Assembly: GCF_030813715.1 (NCBI RefSeq)
Contig: NZ_JAUSUZ010000001.1
Location: forward strand, 186,001-250,000
Reading direction: 5' to 3'
Length of the DNA: 64,000 nt
Source of the DNA: Catenuloplanes indicus
GTDB taxonomy: Bacteria > Actinomycetota > Actinomycetes > Mycobacteriales > Micromonosporaceae
Part shown: positions 22,944-28,466 of the stretch, piece by piece
Position numbering within the stretch: position 1 is the stretch's first letter
How the letters are laid out: each line of letters opens with the position of its first letter
Translations under genes and position numbers: made by a program
Notes under the pieces: generated by a model
What the model was told of the DNA's origin: nothing
Seen by the model: the letters and a program-made list of their open reading frames with translations, nothing else
The model's database searches: none

Positions 22944-24557
22944 TCAGGAGTGCAGGTCGCGTCGGGTGTAGGCGACTGCCCCACCGATGGCCAGACCGGC
23001 CGCGATGGCCGTCATCGTGAGCGTGGCAGTCCATGCGGGGCCGGTCAGTGGTACCGGCGCCAGATGCGCGAACGGCGACAGATTCCTTGTCCACCCGGGT
23101 GCGCCGGTGGCTTCGGCGAGGATCAGGAGCAGGAAACCGCCGGTGGCCGGCAGCGTCCCGGCGAGCACGGTCACCCGGGGTGCCGCGCCGGCGGAGAGCA
23201 CGGCGGCACCGAGGCTGAGCGCGACGACCGGCAGCGTGTTGACGGTGCCGGCCAGCGCCGCGGGCAGCGTCAGCCCGCCGCCGGCCACGGCCACACCGGC
23301 CCAGGTCGCCAGCGCCGCGACGGTGAGCAGGATCAGCGCGCCGCCCGCGGCCGCGGCGGTCTCGGCCGTGAGCAGGCGGGTTCGGGTGAGCGGTGCGGCG
23401 GCGAGTGAGGTGAGGTGCCGGCCGGTCTCGGCGGCGGCGAACGCGCCCATCCGGGCCGCGGTGAACGCGCCGGCCGGGAGCGCGAGCAGGGCGAAGATGC
23501 TGGCGGTGAACCCTTCCACGGTGTGCATGCCGGCGAAGCCGGCCTGCGCCGCGGCGTCGGCGAAGACGGTGTTGCCGGTCAGGAACTCGGTGACCGAGCG
23601 TGCGGTCAGGCCGATGAGCAGGAAGTAGGCGCCGATCCCGGCGGCCCAGGCCAGGACCGGCCCGATCGCGCGGCGCACCGCGAACGCGACCGGGCCGCCC
23701 AGCAGCCACCGCCTCGGGGCGCGTCCGCCCGCCGGGGCGGTCAGGCCGCCGCCGATGTCCCGCCGGCCGGCCGCGGCCAGCGCGGTCGCGGCGATTCCCA
23801 CAGTGGCGGCGGTCAGGAGCAGCAGCGGCAGCGGGTCGTCGCGGCCGTACGGGGAGCTGAGGGCGAGCAGCCCGAACGGCGACAGCCAGTGCAGCCAGCC
23901 GAGCGCGGCGAGCCCGTCGCCGATCATGCGCAGCAGCAGGCCGGCGCCGAGCACGGCGACGGTCGTGCCGCTGGCCGGGGCCCGGGACGGGAAGACCTGC
24001 GCGGCCAGCGCGGCGACCGCGATCGCGAACAGTCCGGCGGCGGTGATCCCGGCGCCGTGGACGATCGCTCCGGCGGGATCCGGTCCGGCGGTCCACAGCG
24101 CGGCCGTGACCGCGATGCCGGCCGCTACCGGTACGACCGCGATCACGGCGAGGTGCCGCAGCAGTGCGGCGCGTGGCGTGGACCGGCCGGCCAGCAGCAG
24201 GCTCCAGCGGCCGGCGTCCTCCTCGCCGCGCAGGACGCGGGTGGTGGTGAGCGCGGCCCAGACGGTGACGATGACGGCCAGGACGGTGCCGATGCGCCAG
24301 ACGGTGAAGCCGCCGGCGTGGTCTAGCGCGATCGGGGTGCCGAACAGGGTACGGATCGCCGGGTTCGCCGCGATCCGCGTCAGCCCGGCGGCCGCGGCCG
24401 GATCGGCGGTCAGCCCGTCGTAGGTGGCCGTGACCAGGGCCGGCATGCCGGCGGCGAGCAGGAGCACGATGGCGCCGCCGCGGCGGATCTGGCGTGCGGC
24501 GAGCCCGGTGATCGCCGCGCCCGGCCGGGCCGGGAGAGTGAGCGCCGGGGCGGTCAT
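22944..24557 (-). CDS. ABC exporter permease, two-half type
   Basis: Protein of 537 aa with about 12 hydrophobic segments arranged as two similar halves, each starting with a membrane anchor and a WA/GRWSLLLAGRSTPRAAL or GRHLTSLAAAPLTRTRLL loop. This is the layout of actinobacterial polyketide/antibiotic exporter permeases (ABC-2 related). It starts inside the stop of the ATP-binding gene upstream (overlap 24554-24557), so the two are made together. Substrate unknown; family members confer drug or lipid export. Confidence 0.82.
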   Translation of the reverse strand: MTAPALTLPARPGAAITGLAARQIRRGGAIVLLLAAGMPALVTATYDGLTADPAAAAGLTRIAANPAIRTLFGTPIALDHAGGFTVWRIGTVLAVIVTVWAALTTTRVLRGEEDAGRWSLLLAGRSTPRAALLRHLAVIAVVPVAAGIAVTAALWTAGPDPAGAIVHGAGITAAGLFAIAVAALAAQVFPSRAPASGTTVAVLGAGLLLRMIGDGLAALGWLHWLSPFGLLALSSPYGRDDPLPLLLLTAATVGIAATALAAAGRRDIGGGLTAPAGGRAPRRWLLGGPVAFAVRRAIGPVLAWAAGIGAYFLLIGLTARSVTEFLTGNTVFADAAAQAGFAGMHTVEGFTASIFALLALPAGAFTAARMGAFAAAETGRHLTSLAAAPLTRTRLLTAETAAAAGGALILLTVAALATWAGVAVAGGGLTLPAALAGTVNTLPVVALSLGAAVLSAGAAPRVTVLAGTLPATGGFLLLILAEATGAPGWTRNLSPFAHLAPVPLTGPAWTATLTMTAIAAGLAIGGAVAYTRRDLHS

Positions 24558-25447
24558 CGTCCGTTCTCCGTGCCGTAGTAGTCGAGGAACATCTCCTCGA
24601 GGCTGGGTTCGCGGACGGCGAGCGCGGTCACGTCGGCGGCGGCGAGCACCCTCAGTGCGGGCGCGGGTGGACCGGTGAGCGCGAACCGCAGCCGGCCCTC
24701 GCCCGTGGTCTGCACGCCGTCGACGCCGGGGATCATGCTCAGATCGGGTGCGCTGCCGGTGTAGTTGATTGTCACTTCGGACCGGTGCAGACCTCGGAGG
24801 TCGCTGATCGTGGAGACGTCGGCGAGCCGGCCGGCGCGCAGGATCCCCACTCGGTCGCAGACCGCCTCGACCTCGGCGAGCTGGTGCGAGCTGAGAAAGA
24901 CGCTCTGCCCGCGCTCACGCGACTCGACGACCGCGGCCCGGAACTGCTGCTCCATCAGCGGGTCAAGGCCGCTGGTCGGTTCGTCCAGCACGAGCAGCGG
25001 GGCGCGGGTGGCGAACGCGGCGATCAGCGCGATCTTCTGCCGGTTGCCGGTGGAGTAGGTGCGCGCCGGCCGGGACGGGTCCAGGTCGAACCGGTCGACC
25101 AGGGCGTCGCGGTAGGCGATGTCGGTGCCCGGGCCGGTGGCGGCGAGCAGGTGCAGGATCTCCGCGCCGGTCAGCTGCGGCCACAGTGCCACGTCGGCCG
25201 GCACGTACGCCAGGTGCCGGTGCGCGCGGGCGACGTCGGCCGCGTCGACGCCGGCGATCAGTGCCCGCCCGGCGGTCGGGCGGGCCAGGCCGAGGATCAT
25301 GCGGATCGTGGTGGATTTCCCGGCGCCGTTCGGGCCGAGGAAGCCGAAGACCTCACCGGCGGCGACGTCCAGGGTCAGGTCGTCGACGGCGGTCAGCCGG
25401 CCGTATCGTTTGGTGAGGTGGATGGTGCGCAGCACGGACTCGTCCAT
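24554..25447 (-). CDS. ABC exporter ATP-binding protein
   Basis: Protein of 297 aa. Walker A GPNGAGKST (about 47), Q-loop region, signature variant YSTGNRQKIALIAAF (Y-S-T-G-N in place of LSGGQ), Walker B LLVLDEPTSGLDP and the switch SSHQ; the C-terminal part carries the usual SLEEMFLDYY tail of exporter ATPases. The ATG at 25447 was preferred to 25480 because the conserved leader hairpin ends 36 nt before it, the same distance as in two neighbouring genes, and the farther ATG would lie 3 nt from the hairpin. Operon with the permease. Confidence 0.87.
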   Translation of the reverse strand: MDESVLRTIHLTKRYGRLTAVDDLTLDVAAGEVFGFLGPNGAGKSTTIRMILGLARPTAGRALIAGVDAADVARAHRHLAYVPADVALWPQLTGAEILHLLAATGPGTDIAYRDALVDRFDLDPSRPARTYSTGNRQKIALIAAFATRAPLLVLDEPTSGLDPLMEQQFRAAVVESRERGQSVFLSSHQLAEVEAVCDRVGILRAGRLADVSTISDLRGLHRSEVTINYTGSAPDLSMIPGVDGVQTTGEGRLRFALTGPPAPALRVLAAADVTALAVREPSLEEMFLDYYGTENGR

Positions 25448-25483
25448 CGGAGGAGGCCCTTCCGGTCGCAAGCGGATCATGAC

Positions 25484-25509
25484 CGCCGACCAGACTTCCC
25501 GGCACACCT
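25484..25509 (-). ncRNA. conserved leader hairpin, copy 1 (ABC exporter)
   Basis: On the coding strand: AGGTGTGCC, GGGAAGTCTGGT, CGGCG. GCCG pairs with CGGC around the loop GGAAGTCTGGT. The same element precedes nhaA and the glycosyltransferase gene. It ends 36 nt before the chosen start. Confidence 0.6.
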
Positions 25510-25548
25510 GTCGCTCACGGTACTCCCGCCCGCACCCGCCGGGAAGTG

Positions 25549-26856
25549 TCAGGTGCGAGACTCGCCCTGGTACACGTCCGGCACGCCGTCCGCGTCGGCG
25601 TCGCGTTCCTCGATCTCGTGCAGCCGCCGGTAGTGCCGGTTGCGCAGGCGCAGCACCACGGTCGCGAGCAGCGCGGACAGGAACGAGCCGGCCAGGATGC
25701 CGATCCGGGCGTGCTCGTCCTTCTCGCTGCCGGCCCCGAACGCGAGTTCGCCGATCAGCAGCGACACGGTGAAGCCGATCCCGGCCAGCAGCGACAGGCC
25801 GAGCACGTCCCACCAGCCGAGCTGGTCGCCGAGCGTGGAGCGGGTGAACCGCTGCACCAGCCAGGTCGCGCCGAGCACGCCGATCGCCTTGCCGGCCACC
25901 AGGCCGGCGATGATGCCGATCGTGACCGGGTCGGCCATGGTCGCGCCGAGTCCGCCCGCGCCGGCGACGGAGACGCCGGCGGCGAAGAACGCGAAGACCG
26001 GCACCGCCACGCCGGCGGAGAGCGGCCGCCAGCGGTGCTCGAAGTGCTCGGCCAGGCCCGGTCCGTCGCCGCCGGCCCGGCGGATGACCGGGACGAGGAA
26101 GCCGAGCAGGACGCCGGCGACGGTGGCGTGGACGCCGGAGGCGTGCACCAGCGCCCACGCGGCGGCGGCCAGCGGCAGCAGCAGCCACCAGGAGCGGACC
26201 CGGCGCTGCACCAGGAACCCGAACAACCCCAGCGGGACGAGCGCGGCCGCCAGCGGCAGCAGCTGCAGCGAGCTGGTGTAGAACACCGCGATGATCAGGA
26301 TGGCGAGCAGGTCGTCGACGACCGCCAGGGTGAGCAGGAACGTGCGCAGCGCGGCCGGCAGGTGCGAACCGACCACGGCGAGCACGGCGAGCGCGAACGC
26401 GATGTCGGTCGCGGTCGGCACCGCCCAGCCGGACAGCGCGCCACCCTCGGCGGTCGCGTTGACCGCGGTGTAGATGATCGCGGGCACCGCCATGCCGCCG
26501 ATCGCGGCCGCGATCGGCATCACCGCCCGGCGCGGGTCGCGCAGGTCACCGGCGACGAACTCGCGTTTGAGCTCCAGCCCGGCGACGAAGAAGAAGATCG
26601 CCAGCAGCCCGTCCGCCGCCCACTGCGCCAGCGTGAGATCCAGGTGCAGCGCGTGCGGGCCGACCGTTATCTCGCTCAGCGTGCGGTAGGCGTCGTTCCA
26701 CGGTGAGTTGGCCCAGATCAGCGCCAGCACGGCAGCACCGAGCAGCAGCGCGCCGCCGACGGTCTCCGCGCGCAGGATCTCGGCGATCCGCCGGGCCTCG
26801 GGCCAGCTGCGGCGGCCGAACAGGTGACGGGCAGGACGTGGCCGCAGATCGGACAT
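25549..26856 (-). CDS. nhaA: Na+/H+ antiporter NhaA
   Basis: Protein of 435 aa with the NhaA pattern: [19 protein letters not shown] near residue 75-95, [15 protein letters not shown] (the sodium/proton-binding region, D in TDIAFAL) and the [22 protein letters not shown] helix with the paired Asp, then a C-terminal half with [11 protein letters not shown]. It exchanges sodium for protons across the inner membrane, for pH and salt homeostasis. The ATG follows GAAGGAGTCTC; a conserved leader hairpin lies 32 nt upstream. The C-terminal tail (about 40 residues, charged) is cytoplasmic. Confidence 0.95.
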
Positions 26857-26888
26857 GAGACTCCTTCAGGAAGGCACGGCGAATCCAT

Positions 26889-26914
26889 CGCCGACCAGCC
26901 TTCCCGGCACACCT
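26889..26914 (-). ncRNA. conserved leader hairpin, copy 2 (nhaA)
   Basis: Coding strand AGGTGTGCC, GGGAAGGCTGGT, CGGCG; one base differs from copy 1. A second small hairpin (GGCGA/TCGCC) follows, and GGAAGGC could alternatively pair with a downstream GCCTTCC. It ends 32 nt before the nhaA ATG. Confidence 0.6.
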
Positions 26915-26959
26915 GGACCCAACCTACCGTGCGCGGCCGGCCGGTGCAGAGGCCACAGG

Positions 26960-28246
26960 TCACCGGCGGACGCCCGCGACGCGCTCCAAGGCGTCGGCGG
27001 CGTCCGCGGCACCGTTCTCCGCGCGGATCCGCTCGCCGAGCCGCCGCGCCGCCTCCGCCATCCGCGGATCGCGGGCGGCCTGCCGGATCGCGGCGCCGAG
27101 CGCGGCCGCGTCCAGGCGGGTCTGCGGCACCGGTGGCGGGGCGACGCCGAGCCGGTGCATGCGCCGGCCCCAGAACGGCTGGTCGGCCACGAACGGGCAG
27201 ATCACCTGCGGCACACCGGCACGCGCGGCGGCCGCGGTGGTCCCGGCGCCGCCGTGGTGGACGATCACCGCGCACCGCGGGAACACCACCTCGTGCGGCA
27301 CATCACCGGCGACGAACGCATGCCGGTCGGAGACGAACCGTTGCAGACCACCCCAGCCGCCGGCCACGACCCCCGGCAGACCAGTCAGGTCGAGGGCCTC
27401 CAGCACGGTACGGGTGACGGCGGCCGGGGCCGGGCCGGCCATGCTGCCGAACCCGACGAACACCGGCGCCGGCCGGCCGTCCAGCAGCGCCCGCACCTGC
27501 GGTTCGAGCGTCCCGCCGGCGGTGGTGGTGGCCGGTGGCGTGAACCAGTAGCCGGTGACCTGCGCCGTAGCGGGCCAGTCCGCCGGGCGCGGCAGGACCG
27601 CCGGGCTGACCGCGTGCAGCACCGGCGCCGGCCCGCCGTCCGGGCGCCGCGCCGGATCGTGCCGGCCACGCCGGCGCGGCAGCCCGAGGCCGGAACGCCA
27701 CCGGTCGACGGTGCGGCCGAACATCAGCGCCGGCGCCTGCATCCCGGCGTAGGTGGCCCGGTTCAGCCGGCCCGGCAGCCGGTCGGAGACGTCCTGGCCC
27801 GGCCACGGGAACTCCCGGGTCGGCACGTACATCGGCAACGGCAGCCCCAGCACGGCGGGCACGCCGAGCTTCTCGGCCACGTGCTGCCCGGCGATCACCT
27901 GACCGTTGTGCACGATCACGTCCGCGCCGGCACCTTCGCCGGTCGAGGCGGCCTGCCAGCAGTCGTCGAGAACCCGGCCGAACATCGCCGGCATCCGCCG
28001 CATGAGCGCCGCCTTCCCCCGGATCCCGCCCTTGGCGACGTCCTCGACGCCCGAACCGTCGTCTAGCACCCGCAACGGCCCGTCGTCGAGCACAGCGAAG
28101 GGCACGGCGTGGACGGCGGCCAGTGCGGCGAATCGCGCAGGTGCCGCGACGAGCGCTTCGTGACCGCGGTGCCGCAGGTGGTGGGCAAGGGCGACGAACG
28201 GCTGCACGTCGCCGCGGGTGCCCAGCGTCAGCATCAGAACCTTCAT
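26960..28246 (-). CDS. MGT/UGT-type glycosyltransferase (GT1 family)
   Basis: Protein of 428 aa with the GT-B fold. N-terminus MKVLMLTLGTRGDVQPFVAL is the acceptor domain start; the C-terminal donor-sugar motif reads VIVHHGGAGTTAAAARAGVP and then PFVADQPFWGRRMHRLGV (about 330-375). Similar enzymes glycosylate macrolides, sterols or flavonoids using UDP- or dTDP-sugars; the acceptor is unknown here. The start at 28246 has GAAGGG upstream and lies 31 nt from the leader hairpin; the frame from 28270 would overlap that leader. Confidence 0.88.
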   Translation of the reverse strand: MKVLMLTLGTRGDVQPFVALAHHLRHRGHEALVAAPARFAALAAVHAVPFAVLDDGPLRVLDDGSGVEDVAKGGIRGKAALMRRMPAMFGRVLDDCWQAASTGEGAGADVIVHNGQVIAGQHVAEKLGVPAVLGLPLPMYVPTREFPWPGQDVSDRLPGRLNRATYAGMQAPALMFGRTVDRWRSGLGLPRRRGRHDPARRPDGGPAPVLHAVSPAVLPRPADWPATAQVTGYWFTPPATTTAGGTLEPQVRALLDGRPAPVFVGFGSMAGPAPAAVTRTVLEALDLTGLPGVVAGGWGGLQRFVSDRHAFVAGDVPHEVVFPRCAVIVHHGGAGTTAAAARAGVPQVICPFVADQPFWGRRMHRLGVAPPPVPQTRLDAAALGAAIRQAARDPRMAEAARRLGERIRAENGAADAADALERVAGVRR

Positions 28247-28277
28247 GGGTGAGCCCTTCGCCGCACGCAAAATGTCG

Positions 28278-28303
28278 CGCCGACCAGACTTCCCGGCTCA
28301 CCG
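28278..28303 (-). ncRNA. conserved leader hairpin, copy 3 (glycosyltransferase)
   Basis: Coding strand CGGTGAGCC, GGGAAGTCTGGT, CGGCG. Here GGTGAGCC can also pair with GGCTCACC just before the ATG at 28246, enclosing the whole leader and its ribosome site region, which would fit translational control. It ends 31 nt before the ATG. Confidence 0.6.
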
Positions 28304-28466
28304 GCCGCCAGCGTACGCCCACGACCGCCTGTCGCGCAGCATGGCGGCGCTGACCCAGCACAGTCCGCACGCCGTCGACGGCAGCCGCGATCCGAGGACG
28401 CGGCCCGGCAACAGGCCGGCAGCATGGCGCGCACGGCGAGGTGGGGCCGACATGCGCGCAGAGACA

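Follow-up and report, generated by a model that had tools for sequence, protein, structure and literature searches.

Introduction

A stretch of the Catenuloplanes indicus genome (64,000 nucleotides, nt; positions 186,001 to 250,000 of contig NZ_JAUSUZ010000001.1), hereafter the window, raises the question of why three neighbouring genes, encoding an ABC exporter ATPase, the Na+/H+ antiporter NhaA and a glycosyltransferase, should each be preceded by nearly the same leader hairpin. All three leaders are copies of one 25-nt element, GGNGN-GCCG-GGAAGNCUGGU-CGGC-R, which recurs in many related genomes, most often ahead of nhaA and other cation transport genes. We consider it about an even chance (roughly 0.5) that the element is the aptamer of a riboswitch that senses an alkali cation, with Na+ the likeliest candidate, placed at the 5' end of the mRNA and followed by a linker that competes with it for pairing. 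A first-pass annotation of the window had proposed a cis-acting RNA and had pointed to sodium or pH as its theme; the comparative data support that proposal, and among a riboswitch, an attenuator and a protein-binding leader we favour the first.

Architecture and Position of the Element

The three copies lie on the minus strand at the places first assigned to them. In a 20-mer scan allowing up to 3 mismatches they were recovered without a mismatch at 25484-25503, 26889-26908 and 28278-28297, together with one unrelated 3-mismatch match; shuffled sequences gave 0.25 matches on average, and four were reached in 0 of 100 shuffles. The spacing to the start codon, given in the annotation as 36, 32 and 31 nt, stands except for its origin: it had been counted from one base later, and from the last base of the stem it is 37, 33 and 32 nt. 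A covariance model built from relatives (R1) scores the window copies between 42.1 and 45.6 bits (Table 1) and the next match in the window at 19 bits.

To describe the element at large, 202 copies were collected as pattern matches, 200 of them exact to GCCGGGAAGNCTGNTCGGC and two with one change; they were deduplicated by identical context only and include the paralogues of C. indicus itself. Numbered from the first base of the stem, the element consists of a GGNGN tail at -5 to -1, GCCG at 1-4, the loop GGAAGNCUGGU at 5-15 and CGGC at 16-19, followed by a position 20 that is A or G in 88% of 200 copies. The collecting patterns do not impose the tail, and GG.G is nevertheless present in 197 of 200 copies. 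The element begins about 7 nt downstream of a -10-like box. In 139 of 200 copies a TANNNT hexamer ends 11-13 nt upstream of the stem, and in none is there one on the mirrored side. A box at this distance places the transcription start at or adjoining the GG.G tail, so that the transcript probably begins at GGNG and has the element as its opening 25 nt. In 186 of 200 copies an open reading frame of at least 100 amino acids follows, with its start 5-130 nt downstream. With transcription read from the -10-like box, the element is, like riboswitches in general, a conserved structured element in an mRNA leader. By eye, four long linkers (L057, L079, L118 and L148) seem to carry an extra hairpin right after the stem.

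Covariation of the Stem and of the Flanking Pair

An indication that the hairpin forms comes from copies in which the stem has changed. With a pattern that left the stem free, 21 distinct non-canonical sites were examined (19 of the 23 non-canonical matches listed were fetched and 4 were not), and nine of these have TANNNT at a spacer of 12-13. Full pairing is kept by double changes in 8 of the 9 (GTCG/CGAC in 2, GCTG/CAGC in 2 and TCCG/CGGA in 4), with downstream genes that are nhaA-like or ABC as judged by eye, and in 0 of the 12 sites that lack the hexamer. In three further searches of 246 genomes, the pattern demanded a changed base at one position of the 5' strand and put no constraint on the 3' strand: 7 of 8 matches were compensated, and the eighth (L222) has no TANNNT at that spacing. 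In alignment A1, composed of 51 random promoter-bearing copies and 9 chosen ones, with variants added deliberately and selected on the 5' strand, all four stem pairs hold in every sequence and three of the four vary on both sides, a result equalled in 0 of 500 shuffles. The covariation of the GCCG/CGGC stem, on which the first-pass annotation had let its proposal hang, is therefore present. The TCCG/CGGA variant precedes what looks by eye like an ABC ATPase in one genus (L201, L204, L205 and L220), and L201, L204 and L220 visibly share a stretch upstream of the -10-like box.

Just outside the stem, positions -1 and 20 are coupled, though for the most part in combinations other than Watson-Crick pairs. 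Their combinations in 200 copies are T-G in 93, C-A in 51, T-A in 16, A-A in 11 and C-G in 1, and no other pair among the 19 positions compared has as much mutual information (z = 38, against 10.8 for the next pair). The U·G and C·A wobbles share the same geometry, a feature that speaks for a structured RNA and against an operator palindrome in the DNA. Since each wobble is present in all seven named groups (labelled by hand, without a tree), the exchange between them probably occurred more than once. By its pattern of substitution, the element acts like RNA.

Genes Downstream of the Element

A tblastn family match starting no more than 450 nt downstream was obtained for 167 of the 202 copies. 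In 102 of them the gene is nhaA, so that the conservation upstream of nhaA in other genomes, which the annotation had likewise made decisive, is borne out. The other families are CPA exchangers (15 copies), a CBS protein (12, followed by CitMHS in 11), ABC ATPase (10), KimA-like (5), CitMHS/ArsB-like (4), alpha/beta hydrolase (4), glycosyltransferase (3), PEP-utilising enzyme (3), TrkH, Na/Ca exchanger and DUF2254 (2 each), and NhaD, Mrp and TrkA (1 each). Family names were taken from Pfam/NCBIfam for representatives only; the KimA-like L056 matches the solved K+ importer KimA with E = 6e-23. With the CBS-CitMHS pairs counted in, cation or cation/proton transport genes follow 145 of the 202 copies, which is what a regulon of alkali-cation/proton transport genes would look like. 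This count is a lower bound, because two of the copies that lack a tblastn family, L083 and L104, precede ion exchangers according to Pfam.

The same theme is met outside the class. Twenty such loci, hand-chosen among the matches listed, comprise 11 nhaA-like genes, 2 Mrp, one each of P-type ATPase, H+/Na+-pyrophosphatase, CitMHS, CBS and DUF2254, and 2 without an identity; Pfam was applied to nine of them and named eight, and the other nhaA genes were recognised by eye. In C. indicus itself, three nhaA genes and other cation transporters stand under the same leader element.

Two of the less familiar arrangements may be mentioned here. The CBS-then-CitMHS/ArsB-type pairs (L023, L029, L033, L039, L043, L050, L090, L105, L169, L179 and L193) combine a small CBS-domain protein with a CitMHS/ArsB-type transporter, and possibly represent a regulated Na+ extruder. 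DUF2254 membrane proteins are found downstream of the element in two lineages (L194, L242), which suggests a role in ion homeostasis. Drug resistance was considered as a common theme because the glycosyltransferase, the ABC exporter and the PEP-utilising enzyme resemble resistance genes; the three proteins examined score under the cut-offs of the curated models for such genes, which are moreover a minority of 16 in 202, and the theme was set aside.

Competition between Linker and Core

Between the element and the start codon lies a linker, and the linkers were compared in subsets of 162 (8-nt match comparison), 153 (complementarity), 115 (forced fold) and 112 after deduplication (CGACC), with gene starts set by a simple rule of our own, some of which are wrong or lie at contig ends. 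In 70 of 153 loci the linker is complementary to the core over 6 or more consecutive nt; the corresponding counts are 31, 28 and 31 for the reverse, direct and complement controls, and 300 dinucleotide shuffles give a mean of 41 and a maximum of 57. For runs of at least 7 nt the count is 22 of 153 against 10, 9 and 7 in the controls, and the shuffle maximum is 21. Forcing the aptamer fold costs 10.5 kcal/mol, compared with 7.3 when the linkers are shuffled upstream of the Shine-Dalgarno sequence (p = 1e-16, n = 115). From the excess of complementarity and the folding cost, the linkers look as though they were selected to compete with the aptamer.

The minimum free energy (MFE) folds of all three window leaders swap the stem for pairing between core and linker, each in its own way. 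In copy 1 the linker segment CGACCGGA (25461-25468) is predicted to pair with the core segment UCUGGUCG (25487-25494); in copy 2 the core segment CGGGAAGGC (26898-26906) pairs with linker positions 26867-26875, next to the presumed Shine-Dalgarno sequence; and in copy 3 GGUGAGCC pairs with GGCUCACC. The 8-bp long-range pair that the annotation had noticed in copy 3 is real as a sequence match and is part of the predicted fold: GGCTCACC in the linker (28248-28255) can pair with GGTGAGCC at the 5' end (28295-28302), overlapping the presumed Shine-Dalgarno sequence, and the 8-nt match is also found in the paralogous copy L005.

The motif CGACC peaks 12-13 nt past the stem, where it starts in 25 of 112 linkers. 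A pseudoknot of GGU in the loop with ACC in the linker was considered as well; because GGUCG is fixed by the collecting pattern, covariation cannot separate such a pseudoknot from an alternative helix.

Distribution

The C. indicus genome holds at least 11 copies, 10 exact and one with one change; the model search of this genome scored 150 of 15941 candidates. Of the 61 genomes examined from the family, 53 contain the exact 19-nt core, and the backward-pattern control is 0 in every row. When up to one mismatch is allowed, the core occurs in 197 of 296 genomes of the class, where the backward control is non-zero in a few rows and the one-mismatch matches (30 of the rows listed) are probably in part fortuitous. 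A 24-mer is found in 65 of 246 genomes of the phylum, class members among them (backward control 0 in every row), and has 0 matches in viral contigs. A scan of named genomes returned at least 119 stretches, with titles that are mostly Actinomycetota. In two Chloroflexi bins (L084, L151) the downstream genes group with the KimA-like and CPA clusters; as these are metagenome bins, contamination is possible. The matches from Mesorhizobium (L137) and from Burkholderiales (L160) look accidental.

Some copies are found close together or in duplicate. A 4.65-kb stretch with a TrkH-like gene and its leader is present twice (L013:10803-15453 and L015:340-4990, 96.2% identity), and a Nonomuraea contig (L190) has three copies of the element inside 6.2 kb.

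The Window Locus

The features of the window locus are collected in Table 1. The closest solved relative of the ABC ATPase in a search of PDB sequences is Rv1218c. For the glycosyltransferase, the nearest NCBIfam model is Rgt, far under its cut-off (134 of 800 bits); another glycosyltransferase lies downstream of the element in Pseudonocardia lacus (L195). The whole ABC-nhaA-glycosyltransferase locus is duplicated in the genome, the window positions ~22950-28390 corresponding to G000:C1 3944600-3950050 (L013) at 92.6% identity over 5.4 kb, and the second locus keeps all three leader elements.

Table 1. The three genes of the window locus and their leaders, in window coordinates
Feature	Positions	Strand	Basis
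-10-like hexamer TACCGT, copy 1	25517..25522	-	TANNNT ending 13 nt upstream of stem
Leader element copy 1, GGTGT GCCG GGAAGTCTGGT CGGC G	25484..25508	-	Exact pattern; 45.3 bits, model R1
Copy 1 linker, presumed expression platform	25448..25483	-	MFE fold, z = -0.61
ABC exporter ATPase, DrrA-like	24554..25447	-	Pfam PF00005, translation; below NCBIfam drrA cut-off
-10-like hexamer TAGGTT, copy 2	26921..26926	-	Sequence; 12 nt upstream of stem
Leader element copy 2, GGTGT GCCG GGAAGGCTGGT CGGC G	26889..26913	-	Exact pattern; 42.1 bits, R1
Copy 2 linker	26857..26888	-	MFE fold, z = -2.25
nhaA, Na+/H+ antiporter	25549..26856	-	Pfam PF06965, 444.9 bits; TIGR00773 above cut-off
-10-like hexamer TACGCT, copy 3	28310..28315	-	Sequence; 12 nt upstream of stem
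Leader element copy 3, GGTGA GCCG GGAAGTCTGGT CGGC G	28278..28302	-	Exact pattern; 45.6 bits, R1
Copy 3 linker	28247..28277	-	MFE fold, z = -1.93
GT28/EryCIII-like glycosyltransferase	26960..28246	-	Pfam PF06722, PF03033

Known RNA Families and Literature

The annotation had been unable to place the element in a family, and Rfam does not place it either: a scan of the window with 4227 families gave 0 matches at the gathering thresholds and only names at chance level at E <= 10. At 18 related loci the sole Rfam matches were to Ms_IGR-5, twice and outside the element; this small RNA (RF02471) lies on the same strand, shortly past nhaA, in Geodermatophilus obscurus and Blastococcus haudaquaticus (L130:483-738, L082:7551-7801). 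The cobalamin riboswitch, whose consensus has the string GGGAA...GGT in common with the element, was rejected, as it has no Rfam match in the window and nothing about the assigned genes suggests a connection with B12. A likeness in design is offered by the small hairpin and pseudoknot riboswitches of the preQ1-I type, which also have a very short aptamer near the start codon and a downstream complement to part of their core; these families have no match in the Rfam scans of the window.

Among the alkali-ion riboswitches, Li+-I (nhaA-I motif, RF03057) resembles the element in being a structured leader before nhaA and other cation transporters. Its model has 0 matches in the C. indicus genome (150 of 5592 candidates scored) and none in the window, with a positive Caulobacter control; the Na+-I model (DUF1646 motif, RF03071) has 0 in the genome with 143 of 143 candidates scored, with a positive Lactococcus control. 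Li+-II (nhaA-II motif) is also found before nhaA (PMC9646797), and has no match in the window, where it was covered by the full Rfam scans only. Na+-I and Na+-II, the latter made up of rare nhaA-I variants, are associated for the most part with alkali-ion transport genes, and sodium is the best guess for the present element too; the source (PMC9337991) reports 308 representatives and expects that further Na+ sensors will be found. As far as their accessible text goes, the two papers on Li+ and Na+ riboswitches (PMC9646797, PMC9337991) deal with motifs other than this element. The parts available of four surveys (PMC11109978, PMC8632094, PMC2864571 and PMC6429828) make no mention of nhaA, and those of PMC11109978 describe an nqrA-II motif that might sense Na+. 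No description of the element was found in the open-access literature, a scope that leaves aside closed journals, preprints and consensus structures given only in figures.

Interpretation and Rival Explanations

Comparison and prediction support the conserved element itself, its location between a -10-like box and a start codon, the covariation of its stem, the coupling of its flanks, the competition of its linkers and its association with a group of genes. We favour a riboswitch because a conserved, aptamer-like core is joined to a variable, competing linker in front of unrelated targets that share Na+ or K+/H+ transport. Its aptamer would comprise the GGNG tail, the wobble-like pair, the 4-bp stem GCCG/CGGC and the conserved 11-nt loop. 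Without ligand, part of the core would pair with the 30-40 nt linker ahead of the start codon; binding of the ligand would stabilise the stem-loop and release the linker, and would thereby alter, probably raise, the translation of genes for Na+ extrusion and for K+/Na+ homeostasis. Direct binding of a small ligand, Na+ as that ligand, the ON direction and the action on translation are what we infer beyond the comparisons. Na+ is the best single guess, and the K+ importers among the targets fit salt stress. That we are dealing with a new class of Na+ riboswitch, with a 25-nt aptamer at the first nucleotides of the mRNA, present in much of the class Actinomycetes, in other Actinomycetota and perhaps in some Chloroflexota, and in charge of a Na+/K+ regulon across the phylum, seems to us a shade less probable than not.

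Several observations weigh against this interpretation. Among the 202 copies, 22 stand before genes with no apparent part in ion handling (10 ABC, 4 hydrolase, 3 glycosyltransferase, 3 PEP-utilising enzyme and 2 DUF2254), and 35 of 202 have no tblastn family match. Complementarity of core and linker over at least 8 nt is found in 4 of 153 loci against 6, 0 and 0 in the controls, and is thus not above the reverse control. Release of the Shine-Dalgarno sequence, tested as a general mechanism, is unsupported: the gain in its accessibility on forcing the aptamer is 0.065, compared with 0.063 in shuffled linkers (p = 0.78). The copy 1 fold is no better than its shuffles (z = -0.61). In the stem, one variant with a -10-like hexamer (L200) is unpaired, and no variant of the innermost pair was seen in 394 genomes. 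Since the loop is fixed by the patterns used for collection, part of its conservation is a product of the sampling. The element is also small, at only 25 nt, whereas the Li+-I and Na+-I models span 55 positions.

An unlikely but credible alternative is that the same RNA switch answers to another signal, which could be alkaline pH sensed as the RNA folds, one of the ions Li+ and K+, or a second messenger, for instance c-di-AMP. A C·A wobble can be protonated, which would suit a pH signal, but a U·G pair needs no proton, and U·G is the commoner form of the flank. The TrkH, TrkA and KimA-like targets indicate K+, whereas the assigned targets are mostly families of Na+/H+ antiporters. It is worth adding that NhaA exports Li+ as well as Na+ and that its known leaders sense Li+ (PMC9646797), and that Na+/H+ antiport also serves internal pH (PMC9337991). 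We are more doubtful of a protein-binding leader, in which a regulatory RNA-binding protein, or else a small RNA, would attach to the hairpin and so control how the message is translated or degraded. The short stem with its conserved 11-nt loop would fit a hairpin that a protein recognises, and the model leaves both tail and loop unpaired; the competition between linker and core, however, is unnecessary for a mere binding site.

If the element worked as DNA, it would be an operator or an initially transcribed region for a dimeric regulator, with GCCG and CGGC as its half-sites. Symmetric changes in an inverted repeat would arise there too, and the site overlaps the presumed +1. Yet the centre is asymmetric and conserved, the orientation is fixed by the one-sided -10-like boxes (139 against 0 mirrored of 200), the flanks couple T-G and C-A instead of T-A and C-G, and symmetry leaves the core-complementary linkers unexplained, so that we regard an operator as quite improbable. 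We give next to no credence to the idea that the element is a dispersed repeat or was merely carried along when parts of the C. indicus genome were recently duplicated. The second, 92.6% identical copy of the 5.4-kb locus speaks for it, but the element stands before unrelated genes in many genomes, keeps a constant place with respect to the -10-like box and the start codon, has diverged linkers, and its 24-mer is absent from the viral contigs.

Significance

As argued in a review (PMC10043782), the validated riboswitch classes presumably include those that are most widespread, and an undescribed element that reaches 197 of 296 genomes of a class at up to one mismatch would therefore be unexpected. 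If the Na+ riboswitch interpretation is true, the element would rank with the smallest sensors of alkali ions known and with the most abundant, and would make the U·G/C·A wobble a recognised part of its structure. It is small enough for direct probing. In C. indicus the catalogued Na+-I and Li+-I models come up empty, yet three nhaA genes and other cation transporters share one leader. The element gives this regulon a name, and may help to explain the membership of DUF2254 proteins, the CBS-CitMHS operon, the ABC exporter and the glycosyltransferase.

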